This document shows, piece after piece, positions 9,179-55,248 of a DNA stretch of 64,000 bases. Every line of letters starts with the position of its first letter. The stretch's first letter is position 1. Both the position numbers and the translations under genes were made by a program. Below the pieces are notes generated by a model. It was not told where the DNA came from and made no database searches. It saw only the letters and a list, made by a program, of their open reading frames with translations. This DNA comes from Adhaeribacter terrigena (GTDB taxonomy: Bacteria > Bacteroidota > Bacteroidia > Cytophagales > Hymenobacteraceae): positions 62,001 through 126,000 of the forward strand of contig NZ_JAEHFX010000008.1 of NCBI RefSeq assembly GCF_016623615.1, read 5' to 3'.

Positions 9179-9297
9179 GTTTTTTGATTTGAAAGTATAG
9201 CGTTTTTTTGTAGTCATCCCGACGTTAGAAGGGATCTATTTAAGCTGATAAGTAAGTTTGTTTTTGACTTTTGAAGCTCAAAACGATACGGTTTTTA
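9179..9297 (+). repeat. two boundary elements at the start of composite repeat A
   Basis: The first copy (9179-9209) ends GAAAGTATAGCGTTTTTTT. The second (9266-9297) is degenerate (ACTTTTGAAGCTC, then AAAACGATACGGTTTTTA). Between them lies GTCATCCCGACGTTAGAAGG-GATCTATTTAAGCT, which recurs in composite repeat B. Confidence 0.6.
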
Positions 9298-9350
9298 TAG
9301 TCTGCTTTCTACTTTTAACCTGCAACCTTTTACTTTCAATTAAACTTTTT

Positions 9351-9502
9351 CCCTCCAGCCGGGTGGCTTCGTTTCTGCGTTCGCGGCTGCAACCCTTCCT
9401 GCCCTTGCGGGCTGCCTCGTGCCTCGGCACCGGAAGTCTTGGAGGCCGCTCTCACAGAAACTGTTGTCAGTTTGCCTCCGTAGTTCGCTTCTTTTTAGTT
9501 TA
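9351..9502 (+). ncRNA. structured repeat core, copy A (candidate RNA or cruciform)
   Basis: Hairpin AGCC-GGGT-GGCT (9357-9368) precedes a nested stem. GTTTCTG (9371-9377) pairs with CAGAAAC (9455-9461), GCGGC (9383-9387) with GCCGC (9445-9449), CTTCC (9395-9399) with GGAAG (9432-9436), and GCCC (9401-9404) with GGGC (9409-9412) over loop TTGC. An alternative hairpin AAACTG-TTGT-CAGTTT (9458-9473) uses the same AAAC as the outer stem, so the two folds exclude each other. Copies B and C keep these pairings. Function unknown; no promoter found. Confidence 0.45.
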
Positions 9503-9715
9503 GTTTCCCGGATAACGTGATTTTCAGCATACGCTGCGCTAGCGATATACGTGAGAAATCTTGTTCATTAAATCCTGCCTTGTTAATCATTATAATCTCT
9601 TCAATCCTGAAAATCGCGTTCAGGCAAATTTCATTGCTGTCTGATTCAGCTGACGGTACGACAGGAGAAAAAAGCTACCTCCCCTAAATCAGGGTTGGGT
9701 TGGGGTAAAAACAGC

Positions 9716-14111: not shown

Positions 14112-15518
14112 GTGATCCGATTTTTTAACAGCGCATTCGTTACCCGGCCCATTTTTTTGTTGCTGCTTTTTGTAGCCATAAACCTGCCGTTGGTGCTCAT
14201 GGGCGTGCCGGTTACCTTACCCGAACTTAAATTTATGGTGCTCGGCGAACGCCTGCAGGAAGGCGCCGCCATGTACCGCGACGTGTTCGATACCACCGGA
14301 CCGCTGGCGGCTTTGGTTTTTTGGGTAATAGATCTGCTGGACGGCCGTTCGCTTTTAATGTACCGGCTGGTGGCGGCATTTTTACTGCTTTTCCAGGCAC
14401 TGAACATGAATTTTATTTTTAACCGGCAACACGTTTTTGCGCAGAAAACGTACTTGCCGGCGCTTCTCTACATGCTGGGCGGGAGTTTTTTCTTCGAATT
14501 CGATACCCTTTCGCCGGTGCTTTTGGGGCAAACTTTCCTGGTATTTTCCATTCGCTACCTGGTTATTGTTTCCAAGGAAGGCTCTAACAATCCGAAGCTT
14601 TTTAAGGCTGGTTTTTTTATCGGGCTGGCCGCGCTGAGTTACCTGCCGTTCTCGTTTTTCCTGATCGTGGCTTATTTTGCGGTGGCTTCGTTTGCCTCCA
14701 ATACTTTCCGGAGTTTCCTGCTGTTGCTCACCGGTTTCTTTTTCCCGTTTGCGGTGGTGGCTACGTATTATCTCTACAACGGCGCGCTCGATAATTTTCA
14801 GGAATTTTATTTATCGGCGGAAGGCTTGTTCAGTTTTCATTTGCAGTTGCCGCTCGCCGATCTTCTGAAATTGCTGGCGCTGCCATTGCTGCTGATACTG
14901 GCGGGAATTTTTATGGCGGCCAGCGCGAACCAGGGCCTGGTTTTTCAGCAGAAAATGCAGCAGCTGATGTTCGTCTGGTTTTGGGTAGCGGTGGTTATGC
15001 TGCTGGCTTCGCCCCAGATCTCGGTACTGAATTTTATTTATTTCCTGCCGGTGCTGGCGTATTATAGTTTTTACCTTTTCCGCCCCGGTGCCCGCTGGTG
15101 GATCCCGGAAGTAATTTTCCTGGTTTTACTTACGCTGCTGCTGGCGGTGCGCTACGCAGTTCCGCTGCACATTGAGCAATATTTAAACATTAACACGAGT
15201 GCGCTGCACCTCAAAACTGACGAAAAATACAAGAAGATCGTAAATGGCCAGCTGTTGGTTTTAGGGCCTGATTTTCAGTATTACGCCTATAATTATGCTG
15301 CTTCGCCGTACCTGAACTGGAGCCTGGCACAAAAGGATTTCAGGAATTTAGATACCTACGAAGCTGTTTTAGCCATTCAGGAAAACATTGTGCAGAACCC
15401 GCCTGAGTTTATTGTAGATGAGGTGCATTTAATGCCGGAACTGGCTTATAAGCTGCCGCTGGTTTTTGGCAGGTATGAGCCGGCTGGTGCAGTGGGGTTG
15501 TATCGGTTGAAACGATAG
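14112..15518 (+). CDS. polytopic membrane protein, unknown (GT39-like topology)
   Basis: A 468-residue integral membrane protein starting at GTG 14112, with about 11 hydrophobic segments and a C-terminal soluble tail of about 110 residues (IEQYLNINTSALHLKTDEKY, then LVLGPDFQYYAYN). An early extracytoplasmic loop has LGERLQEGAAMYRDVFDTTGPLAA, resembling the D/E-containing first loop of GT-C glycosyltransferases and DUF6427-like Bacteroidota proteins. I cannot assign it to one family. It is a single gene whose 3' end runs straight into a boundary element and composite repeat B. Confidence 0.7.
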   Translation: MIRFFNSAFVTRPIFLLLLFVAINLPLVLMGVPVTLPELKFMVLGERLQEGAAMYRDVFDTTGPLAALVFWVIDLLDGRSLLMYRLVAAFLLLFQALNMNFIFNRQHVFAQKTYLPALLYMLGGSFFFEFDTLSPVLLGQTFLVFSIRYLVIVSKEGSNNPKLFKAGFFIGLAALSYLPFSFFLIVAYFAVASFASNTFRSFLLLLTGFFFPFAVVATYYLYNGALDNFQEFYLSAEGLFSFHLQLPLADLLKLLALPLLLILAGIFMAASANQGLVFQQKMQQLMFVWFWVAVVMLLASPQISVLNFIYFLPVLAYYSFYLFRPGARWWIPEVIFLVLLTLLLAVRYAVPLHIEQYLNINTSALHLKTDEKYKKIVNGQLLVLGPDFQYYAYNYAASPYLNWSLAQKDFRNLDTYEAVLAIQENIVQNPPEFIVDEVHLMPELAYKLPLVFGRYEPAGAVGLYRLKR

Positions 15519-15636
15519 TTTTGAAGGTTAAAAGTATAGCCTTTTTTTCTTTGTCATCTCGACGATAGGAGGGATCTATTTAAGCTAATTACTAAGTTTG
15601 CTAAAGAGTTTTTATACTTGAAAGGATACCGTTTAT
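15518..15636 (+). repeat. two boundary elements at the start of composite repeat B
   Basis: 15518-15549 (AGGTTAAAAGTATAGCCTTTT) begins at the last base of the membrane-protein stop codon. 15609-15636 (ACTTGAAAGGATACCGTTTA) is a shortened copy. The CATCTCGACGATAGGAGG repeat lies between them, as in repeat A. Confidence 0.6.
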
Positions 15637-16125
15637 CATAGCAAGCTTTAGTTCTTAATTATTAATTTTTAATTATTAATTAAACTTTCTCCCTCCAGCC
15701 GGGTGGCTTCGTTTCTGCGTTCGCGGCTGCAACCCTTCCTGCCCTTGCGGGCTGCCTGTGGCACCGGAAGTCTTGGAGGCCGCTCTCACAGAAACTGGTG
15801 TCAGTTTCCTCCTTAGTTAGCTTCTTTTTAGTTTACTCTCTCAGATAGCGTGATTTTCGAGAGCGTTGCGCTGGCGATATCCGTGATGGCAGAAAGTCTA
15901 AGAAAGGCAACCACAAAGGTTGTTTTACAAAGAAATTCTATTTGTGGATTCAGACAAATAATCCTTAAATTCCTGAATCCTATAAATCCAAATTCAGCCA
16001 AATAATCCTGTTCATCCCAAAAATCCTTAAAATCGTGTTCAGACAAATCATTCCCGTTTGCTTCAGCTAACGGTACAGACGAAATCTCCCTCCCCTGAAT
16101 CAGGAGAGGGTTGGAGTGAGATAAA
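15519..16125 (+). repeat. composite intergenic repeat B (convergent gap, 652 bp)
   Basis: Same module order as repeat A: boundary elements; AT-rich inverted repeat (15652-15684); hairpin core (15691-15835); GCGTGATTTTC...GCTGGCGATAT block (15847-15883); repeated AATCCTT/AATCCTG units (15950-16048); CCGTTTGCTTCAGCTAACGG stem (16054-16073); and a CTCCCCTGAATCAGGAGAGG inverted repeat. It lies between a plus-strand and a minus-strand gene. No coding region is seen. Confidence 0.7.
15691..15835 (+). ncRNA. structured repeat core, copy B
   Basis: Nearly identical to copy A through the outer, second and third stems and the GCCC-TTGC-GGGC tip. The side hairpin is shortened (TGTGGCAC in place of the longer GTGC/GCAC arm). 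The alternative hairpin is a perfect GAAACTG-GTGT-CAGTTTC here, one pair longer than in copy A. Confidence 0.45.
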
Positions 16126-16170
16126 GGTTGGGTGGTTGAACACGTTTGCCGATCAAAGCAGTTTGCTGCA

Positions 16171-16593
16171 TCAATTTCCTTGCAACGTAACGATCACGGT
16201 GCGTTTGCCGGCGTGGTTGCGGTGTTCGCAGAGATAAACGCCTTGCCAGGTGCCTAAATTGAAGCGCCCTTTGGTGATGGGAATGGTTACGGAGGTGCCT
16301 AACAGGGCAGCTTTTAAATGCGCGGGCATGTCATCGGGGCCTTCAAAAGTGTGGCGGTAGTAGGGGGCGTTTTCCGGGGCCAGTACGTTGAAATGACTTT
16401 CGAAGTCTTTTCTGACATCCGGGTCAGCATTTTCGGAGATGGTGAGGCTGGCGGAGGTATGCTGGATGAAAATATGCGCCAGACCGACTTCAATTTGCTC
16501 GAGTTCTGGAAGCTGGGCTTCAAGCAGATCGGTAATTAAATGAAAGCCGCGCGGCACAGCAGGGAAACGGATACTTTTCTGGAGCCAAACCAT
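16171..16593 (-). CDS. YjbQ/UPF0047 family protein (secondary thiamine-phosphate synthase-like)
   Basis: A 140-residue single-domain protein matching the family length. Conserved stretches are HIFIQHTSASLTISENADPDV (about 40-60) and GTWQGVYLCEHRNHAGKR (about 114-131), whose H, E and R residues line the putative active site. The E. coli YjbQ protein has weak thiamine-phosphate synthase activity; the physiological role is unsettled. The start codon ATG (16591-16593) is inside a boundary element, so the first residues MVWLQKS are encoded by repeat sequence. The upstream gene's stop codon overlaps the other end of the same element. Confidence 0.88.
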   Translation of the reverse strand: MVWLQKSIRFPAVPRGFHLITDLLEAQLPELEQIEVGLAHIFIQHTSASLTISENADPDVRKDFESHFNVLAPENAPYYRHTFEGPDDMPAHLKAALLGTSVTIPITKGRFNLGTWQGVYLCEHRNHAGKRTVIVTLQGN

Positions 16594-16604
16594 AGCGTTT
16601 TTTT
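16572..16604 (+). repeat. boundary element carrying a start codon and touching a stop codon
   Basis: ACTTTTCTGGAGCC, then AAACCATAGCGTTTTTT. The reverse complement of CAT within it is the YjbQ-family start codon. The poly-T end runs into TTA (16603-16605), the stop of the beta-helix lipoprotein gene. The whole gap between the two minus-strand genes is this element. Confidence 0.8.
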
Positions 16605-18027
16605 AGTCTTTGTTTTCGTAAGCGCCCATGTCTGGGTTCGGATTGGAGCCTTGCGGGCGCGGCTCGCCGGTCAGATCTATATTCACGCCGTTGCGGGCGC
16701 CGCCAATGGCCGGAGAATCTTCTTTGAGGCTGTAATTGATTTTGCGGGCCGGAACAAAGCCGTCGCCGGGTTGCACGAATTTGGGATCCTGGTTCAGCAG
16801 GTTGCCGTTGCCGGTAAATTTGGCTTCGTTCTGATATTTTGTGGTCTGGATCAGGCTATTCTGGATCGTTACGTTTTTCAGGCCTTCGCGGGTGAGGAAT
16901 AAAAGTTCGTTTTCCATTTTTCCGTTGCGGGTTCCGTTCCAGATAATGCTGTTTCTGAACGTTACGATCGGGTCTTTAATAGGCCGCAGGGCATTATCGT
17001 AAATTGCGCTGTCGGAAAAGGCAACCGCTTCGTTATCGCGTTTAAATTCCGGGGTGTAATTGGCAATGGTGCAGTAATTGAAATCGTATTTTCCGCCGCC
17101 AATTCCGGCAAATGCGTACTGGCCGCAATTGGTTATTAACGAGTTGGTAAGTTTTACATCGGTATCTAAGCCTAATATTCCGGCGTAGAATATATTTTTT
17201 ATAACCGTATTTTCAATTTCAGACTGGTTGCCGTCAAAATTGATAAGCCTTAGGCCATACGTTGCATTTTTTATTTCGGTGAACTGAATTTTATTATTGC
17301 GGCTCATGGTGTCGAAGAAAAGCCCTTCCCATTGACCTGGTACGTTGGCAAAAGCAGAATCGCGGCGGTCGTTCTGGAAGAAAACACGTTTGCCGGCGGT
17401 TCCTTCTACCTTTAAAGTGCCCTGCACATATAAAATTGCGCCCGCGTGCCCATAAACTTTCGTGCCCGGCCGGATGGTAAGCGTGCAGTTTTCGGGAACC
17501 ACCACAATGCCATATAAAACATAGGCTTTCGGGCCTTCCCAAACGGAATTGCAGTCGAGTTCTTCGTTGCGGAAAAAGTTAGCGTTCTGGCCGTAGGCGC
17601 GCAAAACAACCTGCTGGCGGTTGCCATTGGTTTCGAATTGCAGGTTGTCTTCGATGATAAACGGCTTGGCGGAATTGTTCGGATCGACGTAAACTTTTAC
17701 TAAAATCAATAAGCTGTCTTCGCCGCGGAGCGTGATGCCCGATGCCATGTCTTTGGCTTCGCCGTCTATGATGAGGTCGAAATCGGAGGCGCCGAGTTTT
17801 TCTAATTTTATCTGGTCTATTTTTACGGCTTTTTTGTTACGGTTATAGATCTTAAGGCGTTTGCTCACGCTGCCGGTAGAAACAAAAACGGTGTCGAAGA
17901 AAATAGTATCGGTTGAAAATTCGAGTTTAGCGCCGGCATCGCGGGTAAGGATTTCGTCGTCGGGTTTGCAGCTGAAAACCGAGAAAAGCAGAAGCAAAGG
18001 AACAAGGGCCGCGAAGCAGTATTTCAT
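16603..18027 (-). CDS. right-handed beta-helix lipoprotein (choice-of-anchor Q type)
   Basis: A 474-residue protein with a lipoprotein signal (MKYCFAALVPLLLLFSVFSC, lipid Cys20). Residues 30-150 look like a beta-sandwich (LEFSTDTIFFDTVFVSTGSV). Then come parallel beta-helix coils rich in N/G/I turns (IQFTEIKNATYGLRLINFDG, LTNSLITNCGQYAFAGIGGG). The C-terminus has SPAIGGARNGVNIDLTG and NPDMGAYENKD, the pattern seen in choice-of-anchor Q proteins. It probably sits on the outer membrane; substrate unknown. A doubled TTAGCACATTA leader precedes the ATG. Confidence 0.85.
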   Translation of the reverse strand: MKYCFAALVPLLLLFSVFSCKPDDEILTRDAGAKLEFSTDTIFFDTVFVSTGSVSKRLKIYNRNKKAVKIDQIKLEKLGASDFDLIIDGEAKDMASGITLRGEDSLLILVKVYVDPNNSAKPFIIEDNLQFETNGNRQQVVLRAYGQNANFFRNEELDCNSVWEGPKAYVLYGIVVVPENCTLTIRPGTKVYGHAGAILYVQGTLKVEGTAGKRVFFQNDRRDSAFANVPGQWEGLFFDTMSRNNKIQFTEIKNATYGLRLINFDGNQSEIENTVIKNIFYAGILGLDTDVKLTNSLITNCGQYAFAGIGGGKYDFNYCTIANYTPEFKRDNEAVAFSDSAIYDNALRPIKDPIVTFRNSIIWNGTRNGKMENELLFLTREGLKNVTIQNSLIQTTKYQNEAKFTGNGNLLNQDPKFVQPGDGFVPARKINYSLKEDSPAIGGARNGVNIDLTGEPRPQGSNPNPDMGAYENKD

Positions 18028-18029
18028 TT

Positions 18030-18057
18030 TTAATGTGCTAATTTTTTAATGTGCTAG
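18030..18057 (-). repeat. tandem leader repeat before the beta-helix lipoprotein gene
   Basis: Two copies of the TAGCACATTA unit in gene orientation within 32 bases of the ATG, as at 10944-10972. Confidence 0.7.
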
Positions 18058-18103
18058 TGCTATTTTTTTAAAAGAAGTTTGCCAGCAGCAGTTTTGGTTC
18101 AGG

Positions 18104-18133
18104 CAGTTTTTGGGTGCAAAACCATACCGTTTT
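18104..18133 (+). repeat. 31-bp boundary element upstream of the beta-helix gene
   Basis: AGTTTTTGGGTGC, then AAAACCATACCGTTTTA. Confidence 0.7.
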
Positions 18134-18166
18134 ACCTTAACGGACAAAGATAGGTTTTTATGATAG

Positions 18167-18205
18167 AAAAAGCCGGTAACATTTCTGCGGCCGGCTTTTA
18201 GTTTT
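18167..18205 (-). terminator. terminator of the HEAT-repeat gene
   Basis: On the minus strand GCCGGCC..., a loop of about 14 bases, then CCGGCTTTTT ending in a T-run. The sequence resembles the hairpin after prfA at 19504-19537, including a shared TAACAT-TCTGC loop. Confidence 0.65.
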
Positions 18206-18230
18206 TTAGTTGAAAGGCATAGCGTTTTTC
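18202..18230 (+). repeat. 31-bp boundary element at the 3' side of the HEAT-repeat gene
   Basis: TTTTTTAGTTGAAAGG, then CATAGCGTTTTTC. It is followed by a stray CCGTCTGCTTTAACTAACGG stem (18243-18262) that matches a module of the composite repeats. Confidence 0.7.
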
Positions 18231-18272
18231 AGGTATTCCCTGCCGTCTGCTTTAACTAACGGATCTCGGATT

Positions 18273-18791
18273 TTACTTTTTTATCTGCTTCAATGCATCG
18301 AGGTAGAATTTCCGGATGCTGTTTTTTTCTTCACGGCTGGCAATATTTTCGGCGGCGGGAATAAGGTCTTTGGTGACCGGGGCTTTGGTTTTGAGGATCT
18401 GGCCTAGCGCAAAAGCAGCCGACCAGCGCACTACGGTTCCTTCGTGTTCGGTATTGACGAGCAGGTTTGTAACGGCGGTTTCCAGGTTTTCGGGGAACAG
18501 GTGCGCCACGTTGCCAATCACTTTTGCCGATTCCCATTTCAGGCGCGGGGCTTTGGCGGTAAGCGTTTCCGAAACAAAATCAAGGCATTTCAGATCGGCA
18601 ATTTCGGGCTTTTGTTTGGTAGCAAACTCGATGGCTTCGATGCATGTGGCTTTTACGGGATCTTTGGCGGTTCTGGCAAATTCGATGAGACTGGTTAATT
18701 CCGGTGGATTTTCGGCCAGCCAGTAGCTCAGGATCTCGGTTTTAGCTTTCGGTTTCTGGATTTTATCGGAAAGTAGTTCGGCAAAGTTCAT
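18273..18791 (-). CDS. HEAT-repeat-like protein
   Basis: A 172-residue all-helical soluble protein from ATG 18791; the frame extends three codons further to a TTG, which is less likely. Helical pairs with alternating hydrophobic positions (LTSLIEFARTAKDPVKATCI, RLKWESAKVIGNVAHLFPEN, VRWSAAFALGQILK) fit ARM/HEAT repeats, usually scaffolds for protein contact. The family is common as a small stand-alone protein in Bacteroidota. No enzymatic motif. It is bounded by boundary elements on both sides. Confidence 0.75.
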   Translation of the reverse strand: MNFAELLSDKIQKPKAKTEILSYWLAENPPELTSLIEFARTAKDPVKATCIEAIEFATKQKPEIADLKCLDFVSETLTAKAPRLKWESAKVIGNVAHLFPENLETAVTNLLVNTEHEGTVVRWSAAFALGQILKTKAPVTKDLIPAAENIASREEKNSIRKFYLDALKQIKK

Positions 18792-18837
18792 GGATTTCAA
18801 TTTCGGAAGATAAGAAAGCTGAAAAGATACTGTTATG

Positions 18838-18867
18838 AGTTTTTTGATGAAAGGGATACCGTTTTAC
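18838..18867 (+). repeat. 31-bp boundary element upstream of the HEAT-repeat gene
   Basis: GAGTTTTTTGATG, then AAAGGGATACCGTTTTAC. A weaker GAAAAGATACTGTTATG lies just before it. Confidence 0.65.
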
Positions 18868-18901
18868 ATTATACTTCATTAATAAACTCCTTGAATGTAT
18901 A

Positions 18902-19462
18902 TTATTCATATTGAGATAAAACGATTTCAAAAAACTTTTTGTATCCAGTGCCTCCAGCCAAATTAGATAATTTATCTAGCGCATCTTTATCAATTTTCTG
19001 ATTCTTAAATTTAAAATTGGTATCTAGTTCCAATAAATAAAGCATTGCTGAAATGAAATTGACACCATTGAATTTTTCCCTTACTATTATCGGCTCATCA
19101 TTAGGGTCATAAAAATCGATATAGAAGAATTCATCATATGTAGTATTTACTGCTAATCTATTTTCCTGGAAAGAAGCTATTGATTTTAATGCTAAATTCT
19201 CGACTTGTAAACTTGTGATTTCGTTATTAAAACGTATGCCTCCAAAATCAACCTTGTCAAGGTCTGTACAGGAAATTAGATCGTCAATCAGGTTGCTAAA
19301 AGTATTACATTGAAGATCATAATTTACATTAAAGTTATCCAACAAATAATTCCAATAATCTTCATCTGCCTCCTTATAACTACTGCTTACTTCTTCTATT
19401 GAAGGTTTTAATGATTTAATCTCTGCAATAATTTTTTCTATTTCCATACCTGCGAGCTTCAT
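18902..19462 (-). CDS. AT-rich orphan protein, unknown function
   Basis: An acidic, soluble protein of 186 residues from ATG 19462; ATG 19447 would give 181, and a TTG at 19474 is less likely. The text alternates helices (MEIEKIIAEIKSLKPSIEEV) with an alpha/beta C-terminus (FFYIDFYDPNDEPIIVREKF). Composition and size resemble contact-dependent immunity or SMI1-like proteins, but I see no diagnostic motif and no toxin beside it. GC content is far below the flanking genes, pointing to recent transfer. Confidence 0.65.
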   Translation of the reverse strand: MKLAGMEIEKIIAEIKSLKPSIEEVSSSYKEADEDYWNYLLDNFNVNYDLQCNTFSNLIDDLISCTDLDKVDFGGIRFNNEITSLQVENLALKSIASFQENRLAVNTTYDEFFYIDFYDPNDEPIIVREKFNGVNFISAMLYLLELDTNFKFKNQKIDKDALDKLSNLAGGTGYKKFFEIVLSQYE

Positions 19463-19503
19463 AGTTAAGAGCAATCATCTTGAGTTGTAAAAGCGAAAGC
19501 TAA

Positions 19504-19537
19504 CAAAAAAGCCGATAACATCTCTGCTACCGGCTCC
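19504..19537 (-). terminator. terminator-like hairpin downstream of prfA
   Basis: Minus-strand AGCCGGTAGC...GATGTTATCGGCT followed by TTTTT (19505-19509). It could end prfA transcription. Confidence 0.55.
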
Positions 19538-19556
19538 TTTATCTTTAGCAGAAATC

Positions 19557-19610
19557 ATTTTCAAATCTCCACATTTTCAAATCTCCACATTTTCAAATCT
19601 TCAAATCTTC
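19557..19610. repeat. tandem repeat ATTTTCAAATCTCCAC at the prfA 3' end
   Basis: Two full 16-bp units and a third that drifts into TTCAAATCTTCAAATCTTC. The repeat touches the prfA stop codon at 19611. Confidence 0.8.
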
Positions 19611-20681
19611 TTAAACCGCTCCTTCTTTCAGACGCTCAGCGTTTTCGGCCAGGCGAAGTTCGGAAATGAAATCTTCGATGCCGCCGTCCATCACGGTTGG
19701 GAGGTTGTAAACGGTGTAGCCAATGCGGTGATCGGTTACACGGCCTTGCGGATAGTTGTAGGTACGGATCTTGTCGGAACGGTCGCCGCCGCCCACCATA
19801 GTTTTACGCTGGGCACCTTCGGCTTCGAGTTTCTTGGCCAATTCTACTTCGTATACGCGCGAACGCAATACTTTCAGGGCTTTCTCGAAGTTTTTCATCT
19901 GCGATTTCTGGTCCTGGCACTGCGCTACCAAACCGGAAGGTAAGTGCGTTAAGCGAACCGCAGAATACGTAGTGTTTACAGACTGACCACCCGGACCGGA
20001 AGAACAGAAAAGGTCTTTCCGGATGTCGTTCATGTCGAGCTGCACGTCAAATTCTTCTACCTCTGGCAGTACTACCACCGAAGCTACGGAAGTGTGAATG
20101 CGACCCTGGGTTTCGGTGGCCGGAACGCGCTGCACGCGGTGCACACCCGATTCGTATTTCATTTTGCCGTAAACGTCTTCGCCGGAAACCCCGAAAATGA
20201 TCTCTTTGTAACCGCCGGAAGTACCTTCGGTCGCATCAATAAGTTCGGTTTTCCAGCCCTGCTTTTCAGCAAAACGGTAGTACATGCGTTGAATGTCGCC
20301 GGCAAAAATAGAAGCTTCGTCGCCGCCCGCACCCGCGCGGATCTCCACGATGATGTCTTTGCTGTCGTTGGGATCTTTGGGGATGAGCATTTCTTTGATC
20401 TGCTCCTCCATAATTTCGCGCTGCGGCAGCAATTCGTCGAGTTCTTCCTTGGCCATTTCGCGGAACTCCTCGTCTTTTTCGGTAGCAATAACCTGTTTGG
20501 CGTTCTCGATGTTGCCGAGCAGGTTCTGGTAATTTTTATATTCGATTACGATCTTTTCCAGATCTTTGTATTCTTTATTCAGCGTTTTGAAGCGTTTCAG
20601 GTCTTCCATGGCATCGGGCTGGATGAGGAGCTGACTTACTTCTTCAAAACGTTCTTTTATGGCTTCTAATTTATCTAACAT
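19611..20681 (-). CDS. prfA: peptide chain release factor 1
   Basis: A 356-residue class I release factor. The GGQ loop is [21 protein letters not shown], read in parts near residues 227-245, where Gln is methylated in the family and drives peptidyl-tRNA hydrolysis. An RF1-type stop-recognition region precedes it ([13 protein letters not shown]), and the C-terminal [19 protein letters not shown] is intact. It ends translation at UAA and UAG. Length matches the family. It is divergent from the lipoprotein gene at 20768. Confidence 0.97.
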
Positions 20682-23998: not shown

Positions 23999-24097
23999 TT
24001 TAGTGCGGAAAGGATAGCGTTTTTAGAGTGAATCATTTATTGCCGTTGTTGGTGTTTTCTGGTTACATACTTTTTAGGCTGAAAAGCATAGCGTTTA
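23995..24097 (+). repeat. two boundary elements at the start of composite repeat C
   Basis: 23995-24025 (AGTTTTTAGTGCGG, AAAGGATAGCGTTTTTA) and 24069-24097 (ACTTTTTAGGCTG, AAAAGCATAGCGTTTA). Between them is GTTGTTGGTGTTTTC (24045-24059), half of the palindrome seen at 12064. Confidence 0.75.
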
Positions 24098-24152
24098 TCA
24101 TAGGTAGCTTGCTGGTTTTAATTACTAACTAGTTTTTTCATCGTTAGCTTTT

Positions 24153-24300
24153 CCCTCAAGCCGGGCGGCTTCGTTTCTGCTCCAAAGCTGTGGATTCACC
24201 TGCCCTTCCGGGCTGGCTAAAGCCACCGGTTAATCCAAAGTCTTTGGAACAGAAACTGGTGTCGGTTTCCCTTCGTCGTGAACTTCTTCTTATTTTACTT
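24153..24300 (+). ncRNA. structured repeat core, copy C, with changed but paired stems
   Basis: AAGCC-GGGC-GGCTT (24158-24171). The outer stem is GTTTCTG (24173-24179) with CAGAAAC (24250-24256). The second stem is TCCAAAG (24181-24187) with CTTTGGA (24242-24248), and the third is TGGATT (24191-24196) with AATCCA (24232-24237), extended by ACC/GGT. The tip is GCCC-TTCC-GGGC (24202-24213), and a side arm is TGGC-TAAA-GCCA (24214-24225). Stems two and three have different bases from copies A and B but stay perfectly paired. The alternative GAAACTG-GTGT-CGGTTTC hairpin is kept with a G-T pair. Confidence 0.5.
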
Positions 24301-24655
24301 GCTCGCAGTGCGCGATTTTCAAGTTACGCTGCGCTGGCGAAATGCGTGAAAGAAGAAAAGGTTTAGAATATTCATTGCCGTATGCTTCAGCTGACGGTTT
24401 TCAAGCTCGCCTCCCGGATAGGAGGGGTTGGGGTGGTGGACCTGCACTGGCGATTGCTAAATCTAAAACAGGAAACTACAAAGGAAAATCCTGCCTATCC
24501 TTTAAATCTTTAAAATCGTGTCCGGACATAAACATGAAATCGGATAACGTGAAAGGGCACCCACAAGAGGTGCCCATACATTAAATACTGATCTTAAATT
24601 CTGTAAATCCTTTAATTGGATGCTCCGAACTTCGTTTCTGAAAATCCTGATTCAG

Positions 24656-34327: not shown

Positions 34328-34452
34328 CAAAACGCTATGCCCGGAGCACTAAAAAGTGCCGGTAGCGCTTAAAGCCAATAATTAAACTAAATAACAGGAG
34401 CCTGCAATGCCGTTTCAAACCAGTTTTTTGGCCTGAAAGCATAGCGTTTTTC
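34328..34452. repeat. two boundary elements in opposite orientation
   Basis: 34328-34357 is in minus orientation (gene-sense ACTTTTTAGTGCTCC, GGGCATAGCGTTTTG) and ends 13 bp before the receptor ATG. 34422-34452 is in plus orientation (AGTTTTTTGGCCTG, AAAGCATAGCGTTTTTC). The rest of this 286-bp gap shows no gene. Confidence 0.75.
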
Positions 34453-55208: not shown

Positions 55209-55248
55209 GTTTTTGTATTTCATTTACTAAATTGAATTAGGCCATATA

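Follow-up and report, generated by a model that had tools for sequence, protein, structure and literature searches.

How does a bacterial gene come to begin inside a repeated sequence that also runs up against the stop codon of its neighbor? This question is raised by a short element at the junction of yjbQ and a beta-helix gene in Adhaeribacter terrigena, in the 64,000-nt stretch of contig NZ_JAEHFX010000008.1 (positions 62,001 to 126,000, forward strand) that we analyzed as a whole and refer to as the window. We found that the element represents a 29-bp, directional motif dispersed over the genome on both strands, and that most copies of this motif were written over existing DNA by substitution. 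We propose that the motif is a candidate uptake signal sequence (USS), known as DNA uptake sequence (DUS) in Neisseria, and that it was built over a yjbQ start codon that was already in place.

The copy at the junction, ACTTTTC-TGGAGCC-AAACCATAGCGTTTT, occupies 16573-16601 on the plus strand (full letters ACTTTTCTGGAGCCAAACCATAGCGTTTT). Its outer T-tract segment (16573-16579, in the position of ASTTTTT) lies about one helical turn from the core and is followed by a nearly free 7-base spacer (16580-16586); the core AAACCATAGCGTTTT (16587-16601) is centered on a nearly invariant TA. An earlier note on this DNA had recognized a CAT inside the element as the ATG of yjbQ on the minus strand, and this is correct: the CAT lies at 16591-16593, and the minus-strand yjbQ open reading frame (ORF), which encodes a YjbQ/UPF0047 protein of 140 aa (PF01894, E 9.3e-42), spans 16171-16593. 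The note also held that the element fills the entire intergenic gap and touches the TTA stop codon of the upstream gene. The latter, a minus-strand gene of 474 aa at 16603-18027 (beta-helix family PF13229, E 1.6e-4, 21.8 bits, under its cut-off of 25.9), could encode a lipoprotein to judge by the look of its N-terminus alone; its stop reads TTA on the plus strand at 16603-16605. The gap of 9 nt (16594-16602) is covered, and two bases of the stop codon are overlapped, when the T-run at 16598-16604 is counted with the element, while the conserved motif itself stops at 16601, one base short. Codons 1 to 7 of yjbQ (MVWLQKS; 16573-16593) lie entirely within the element, whose outer tract on the minus strand supplies the Lys6 and Ser7 codons and the final base of Gln5. 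The observation of an element over the yjbQ start and against the upstream stop is thus confirmed. The copy is antisense to both flanking genes.

The motif reads ASTTTTT-N7-AAASSMTASCGTTTT, with the core written out as AAA-SS-M-TA-S-CG-TTTT. Twenty-two of its 29 positions are specified and the seven spacer bases are nearly free; its A/T segments (a T-tract at -12 to -8, AAA at 0 to 2 and TTTT at 11 to 14) recur at about the spacing of a helical turn. A position weight matrix (PWM) was trained on 464 kb, made up of the window plus 20 segments of 20 kb each from fixed positions in the genome, and the same DNA read backwards, or the reversed pattern, served as control. On the training DNA this matrix, which holds 25.5 bits in total, found 494 sites at a score of at least 11 versus 29 in the reversed control. 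On 380 kb held out from training, it found 352 sites at a score of at least 14 versus 8, evenly divided between strands (172 plus, 180 minus), or 0.93 per kb. An IUPAC pattern allowing up to three mismatches returned 296 matches versus 0 in the 464 kb (73, 88, 62 and 73 copies with 0, 1, 2 and 3 mismatches, each versus 0 reversed) and 2,910 matches versus 5 in the 4.43-Mb genome (1485 and 1425 by strand). A sample of 844 kb held 800 copies versus 20 in its reversed control, and by extrapolation a genome total of about four thousand copies would hold. The density is close to one copy per kb, as in published uptake signals. The copy at yjbQ scores 29.8 and ranks 332nd among the 800 sampled copies, an average member of the family. 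In the window, the matrix finds 61 or 62 copies, depending on which of two successive training rounds is used. The 14-mer GCCAAACCATAGCG at 16584-16597 (plus strand) has 15 window matches with up to three mismatches, versus a shuffle mean of 6.4.

Copies of the motif are enriched between genes and are also common within them. The gene calls came from a simple codon-score caller, and the context counts are approximate; one sampled stretch (L014) was left out of the 800-copy set since it overlaps two others (L132 and L133). Intergenic copies number 515 and fall in about 25% of the sequence, 90 copies lie at gene edges and 195 inside genes. The element is therefore repeated and can contain a start codon, as the earlier note had it, but it is not limited to gene boundaries. 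Intragenic copies are more often antisense than sense (117 versus 78; binomial p 0.006). Among sites scoring at least 10 in the first 464 kb, gaps between tandem genes hold 102 antisense and 78 sense copies, and there are 65 sites in convergent gaps (14.1 kb) and 61 in divergent gaps (22.7 kb). The 800 sites include 69 overlapping plus/minus inverted pairs with an offset of 13 bp; the other copies are one-sided. A full palindrome was considered as a description of the motif and rejected, since the right-hand outer A-tract disappears once these 69 pairs are removed.

Comparison with Adhaeribacter soli, over an alignment of 55.7 kb, indicates how the copies arose. Of 62 window copies, 41 could be aligned and 21 could not; 28 of the 41 were gapless, 12 had other gaps and a single one was insertion-like. 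Intragenic copies were gapless in 16 of 18 cases, with two gapped, and the 23 intergenic or edge copies comprised 12 gapless and 10 gapped alignments and one site, at 55248, where A. soli is without 21 of the 29 motif bases. Many of the 12 gapped alignments contained gaps of 1-4 nt or extra A. soli bases; the latter reached 29 at 18105, although alignment there is unreliable. Copies at 2207, 11773, 48322 and 59363, among others, lie in coding DNA, are absent from A. soli and align without gaps. At 17 shared gapless sites, 18 motif positions were identical in 274 of 306 comparisons (90%), versus 86 of 119 for the spacer and 283 of 394 (72%) for the flanks, a count that leaves out the 21 unalignable and 13 gapped window sites; at 10 sites found only in A. 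terrigena, 123 of 180 motif positions were identical. Because the alignments are mostly gapless and the motif positions of shared copies are so similar, most of the family is therefore not a mobile insert. The copies were written over existing DNA by substitution and then held.

The family search covered 200 genomes drawn from a larger group, two from the motif-bearing genus and 198 from five others. A. soli, the only other genome of the genus searched, gave 730 matches versus 4 reversed, and a matrix trained on it recovered the same, somewhat looser core (345 sites versus 34 reversed in 400 kb). The 198 genomes of the other genera had at most 8 matches each, with full-motif counts of 0 in Rufibacter immobilis and 1 each in Pontibacter arcticus and Sabulibacter ruber. 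One family genome (G017) showed 20 matches versus 2 to the bare core with two mismatches, but only 3 versus 4 reversed to the full motif. In the 26 yjbQ loci from Rufibacter, Sabulibacter and Pontibacter (529 kb), five sites reached a score of 14 but no site reached 18. These results show that, among the 200 family genomes, the motif is confined to the two of Adhaeribacter.

The start of yjbQ is older than the element that now covers it. Among 80 yjbQ relatives, an ATG is present at the same codon in 48, one codon later in 31 and at neither within three codons in one; Q5 is kept in all 80, K6 in 64 and W3 in 56. The conservation of the start and of Q5, together with relative loci that are nearly free of the motif, shows that the YjbQ N-terminus predates the element. 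The statement that residues MVWLQKS are repeat-encoded consequently holds for the position of codons 1 to 7 and not for their origin. A conserved downstream start used in place of this one, the finding that would have spoken against the earlier note, has no support for this gene: codon 2 reads GTT here, W3 and Q5 show conservation, and relatives that start one codon later carry ATG where codon 2 would be. The A. soli junction bears a looser version of the motif (GACTAAGCAAGCAGACAACGCTATGATCTGGCACCAGAAAAGT) with a gap 7 nt longer. YjbQ residues 1-7 differ between the two species only at 2 and 4. Residue 2, which falls within core positions, is V in A. terrigena, I in A. soli and K in most Rufibacter, and may be the only one set by the element; residue 4 sits in the free spacer. 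From these comparisons, the element was built over a pre-existing start by substitutions and a shortened gap. The register recurs elsewhere, since seven of 200 sampled elements with CAT in this position, the yjbQ copy included, supply a predicted start codon, and overlaps between element and start in any register number 18, in 16 genes, among the 800 copies. Overall, the earlier note's interpretation of the element is partly supported.

We favor, with moderate confidence, the view that the motif is a candidate uptake signal in Bacteroidota, because its density, strand balance, core with A/T tract, inverted pairs and substitution origin match those of published signals. According to the available sections of PMC1626085, uptake signals occur at about one copy per kb, without orientation bias, with a strong consensus and with some close pairs in opposed orientation; those of Pasteurellaceae have AT-rich segments at about helical-turn spacing, and gap analysis attributed their origin to substitutions, not insertions. 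PMC1939737, in the parts accessible, likewise describes uptake signals as non-palindromic, arising by point mutation and forming inverted repeats in about 10% of cases, with a non-coding share above expectation. For the DUS, one orientation is reported to be more frequent in genes (available text of PMC2346458). In the proposed mechanism, the competence machinery would include a DNA receptor, at the cell surface or in the periplasm, with a preference for fragments that carry the tag, imported fragments would recombine into the chromosome, and the combination of uptake bias and recombination would gradually write the tag into every tolerant place, a form of molecular drive. The yjbQ junction would be one such tolerant place that happened to include a start codon. 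The Gln-Lys-Ser codons, common to A. soli, could already have given most of the outer A-tract, and an ATG suits the core (CGCTATG); a small number of substitutions, with the gap shortened by 7 nt, might then have finished the tag at the cost of the variable residue 2. Under this explanation, the element overlaps the start and stop codons incidentally and does not serve as a regulatory device. The A. terrigena genome encodes, in open frames, ComEC and DprA, and contains a 308-aa protein with three HHH_3 motifs (L154:766-1692).

Several observations weigh against an uptake signal. ComEC and DprA do not discriminate, since of 14 control genomes 10 match the former and 11 the latter, and DUF5689, a domain found in one essential Riemerella transformation protein, had no match in A. 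terrigena and one weak match in A. soli. The literature search found no uptake data for A. terrigena or its family. The intragenic share of 24% (195 of 800) is below the 65% of H. influenzae and 35% of the gonococcus given for signals within ORFs in the accessible part of PMC1939737. Strand counts were uneven in the first 464-kb sample (179 versus 117, p 0.0004), as a strand-biased signal of the KOPS (FtsK orienting polar sequences) or Chi kind would be, whereas the whole genome and the held-out sample were balanced; single contigs are also uneven (for example 60 versus 37 in C11), and the contigs are unplaced, with per-contig counts that have no consistent relation to GC skew. The core alone retains a partial dyad about the TA, and DNA uptake enhancing sequences (DUESs) are described as 'not palindromes'. 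Unlike in reports on USS, the spacing of copies in a 220-kb run is indistinguishable from random (coefficient of variation (CV) 0.88 versus 0.86, 95% range 0.75-1.00), and the CV falls to 0.67 only when a single 11.7-kb desert is omitted. Of five deserts of at least 5.5 kb, four were characterized: one holds a respiratory operon and three hold large surface, secreted or accessory genes, which gives no support to an absence of the tag from foreign DNA. The comparison of two genomes does not distinguish gain from loss of a copy, except at yjbQ.

Two of these deserts deserve a description of their own. The longest motif-free stretch in the 220-kb run (L139:1-11671, G000:C17:180001-191671) covers a cytochrome-type respiratory operon, named by eye, which suggests that strongly constrained genes resist the motif. 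Another, of 6.4 kb (L023:1174-7617), holds an accessory gene bearing a Tc-complex binding domain.

One way to read the earlier note is that a mobile short repeat, such as a miniature inverted-repeat transposable element (MITE) or a repetitive extragenic palindrome (REP, or its paired form REPIN), inserts at gene boundaries and brings its own start codon. Such a repeat would account for the many copies, their frequency at gene edges, the overlapping inverted pairs, the site at 55248 and the seven matches in A. soli to Y1_Tnp, the domain of REP-associated tyrosine transposases (RAYTs). It would not account for the 28 gapless alignments among 41, for a spacer that is almost free of information beside informative motif positions, unlike copied DNA, or for a gap at yjbQ that falls 7 nt short of its A. 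soli counterpart instead of exceeding it; in the A. terrigena genome, the richest in copies, there was no Y1_Tnp match, other transposase families not having been searched. An insertion sequence, MITE or REP is thus largely refuted by the mostly gapless alignments and the lack of a RAYT, with 21 window copies unaligned, and we consider this origin highly improbable. Hardly more probable is a transcription signal, that is, an intrinsic terminator or promoter between genes. The motif ends in a T-run and is somewhat denser in convergent than in divergent gaps, but copies also occupy divergent gaps and the interiors of genes, those between tandem genes point either way, and the copy at yjbQ is antisense to both neighbors. 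Six strands of five copies were folded and had no consistent hairpin: five strands had z values of +1.0 to -0.8, and the greatest stability among these was -7.9 kcal/mol, for the copy at 34422; the remaining strand had z -3.4 but an energy of only -0.6 kcal/mol. A search of window 15000-20000 against Rfam gave no match. A terminator or promoter was rejected on the strength of gene contexts and folding.

The chief rival to an uptake signal is a binding site for a nucleoid-associated or global regulatory protein, in which a dimer would read the TA-centered dyad and the outer tract and selection would keep the copies. The partial dyad fits a dimeric chromosomal protein, and the phased A/T tracts, the intergenic enrichment, the conservation of motif positions between the two species and the local strand imbalance are all in keeping with it. 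Against this, for a site with a structural role a consensus of 22 specified positions repeated some four thousand times would be very strong, the motif hardly rises above background in the 198 genomes from the five sister genera, and copies also occur within genes on both strands. These points are not decisive, and we regard such a site as unlikely. Some other drive resembling gene conversion could spread the tag without DNA uptake, for example if recombination or repair were biased at the motif, or if the motif marked self DNA for a nuclease. It would leave the same substitution-type differences and the same restriction to one genus, but we know of no such system with a directional consensus of 29 bp, and we think it distinctly less likely still.

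Other copies and repeats surround the junction. The adjacent plus-strand motif copies are at 15517-15545 (score 26.7), 15607-15635 (27.4), 18105-18133 (35.9) and 18200-18228 (32.6). A dispersed, apparently non-coding repeat of about 0.5 kb is present in three partly similar copies (window 9203-9660, 15543-16074 and 24064-24528), and within or next to them there are copies of the 29-bp motif. A tandem 16-bp repeat, CATTTTCAAATCTCCA, is located at 19556-19610, immediately downstream of the ORF at 19611-20681. In the 400-kb sample of A. soli, another over-represented string was noticed, TTAAACCCTACGCTAC, whose overlapping 10-mers each match 16-18 times when both strands are counted. The Rufibacter and Sabulibacter loci (L030, L031, L033-L039 and L041) carry a REP-like palindromic repeat around CCGTTTTTGGCYTGTTTT...AAAACAGGCCAA, with 19 seed matches in the ten loci.

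A second dispersed sequence is found in the same family. The 10-mer GCTATACCTG is present in 559-1,472 exact copies on both strands, versus at most 7 reversed, in six of 11 Pontibacter genomes, and in 25-98 copies in the remaining five; the 10-mer was noticed in L042, L045, L049, L050, L052 and L054, among others. Among 120 family genomes, 11 of the 43 in genus g2 (Pontibacter by its counts) have at least 559 copies. In six Pontibacter loci, 57 of 104 core copies are inside genes and 47 outside. When 28 copies from three species pairs were aligned to motif-poor species, 23 were gapless and none identical, some of the alignments being poor. Like the Adhaeribacter motif, the 10-mer is dispersed on both strands, often intragenic and limited to part of one genus; unlike it, the 10-mer is short, has no clear flanking tracts and differs in sequence. 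The two share GCTAT, possibly by chance. The Pontibacter 10-mer resembles a tag of the DUS type.

The available portions of PMC2346458, PMC1939737 and PMC1626085 describe uptake signals in no groups other than Pasteurellaceae and Neisseriaceae, and among the open-licence titles and abstracts listed in our search none describes such a motif for Adhaeribacter, Pontibacter or Hymenobacter. Within Bacteroidota, Riemerella columbina prefers self DNA, and the accessible text of PMC7965970 reports no convincing tag, its k-mer count having given only A/T-rich k-mers. Transformation of R. anatipestifer requires ComEC, DprA, ComF, RecA and four proteins without homology to known machinery (PMC8459023, as far as its available text goes). 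It is conceivable, although we would stop short of calling it probable, that Bacteroidota independently evolved uptake signals, a 29-bp tag in Adhaeribacter and a separate 10-bp tag in some Pontibacter, through biased uptake and recombination by the phylum's own poorly known machinery. If so, one family would contain two unrelated 'dialects' and would be a model in which to study how members of the phylum favor their own DNA. A genuine signal would represent a further independent origin. It would open sequence-specific uptake and molecular drive to experiment in a new phylum whose transformation apparatus is distinct, and those who engineer these bacteria could attach the tag to donor DNA. If the motif is instead the site of a chromosomal protein, thousands of strong sites limited to one genus would be surprising as well. 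The overlap with a start codon is a minor matter, yet it is a warning that a tag can shape start sites and N-termini in such genomes.

Among known systems, REP/REPIN elements with their RAYTs resemble the Adhaeribacter motif in having many short, often intergenic and sometimes paired copies; unlike them, the motif has no Y1_Tnp match in A. terrigena, no consistent hairpin in five copies and mostly does not behave as an insertion. The USS of Haemophilus and other Pasteurellaceae, a AAGTGCGGT or ACAAGCGGT core with two AT-rich segments, is a closer parallel: in the available sections of PMC1626085 it too is present on both strands at a density near one copy per kb, with a strong core and A/T segments about a helical turn from it, some inverted close pairs, a substitution origin and restriction to a clade. 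The Adhaeribacter motif differs from it in being unrelated in sequence, longer (29 bp) and from a different phylum, with a one-sided outer tract and a partial dyad, and in being less often intragenic. The DUS of Neisseria, ATGCCGTCTGAA, has a similar density. Unlike the Adhaeribacter motif, it is 10-12 bp long and without flanking motifs (accessible text of PMC2346458 and PMC1626085), and its receptor is ComP (available part of PMC3868556). It nevertheless offers a counterpart to the yjbQ junction, since it contains an ATG: according to the available text of PMC2346458, the annotated starts of 30 meningococcal genes coincide with a DUS, as seven of 200 sampled elements supply a predicted start here.

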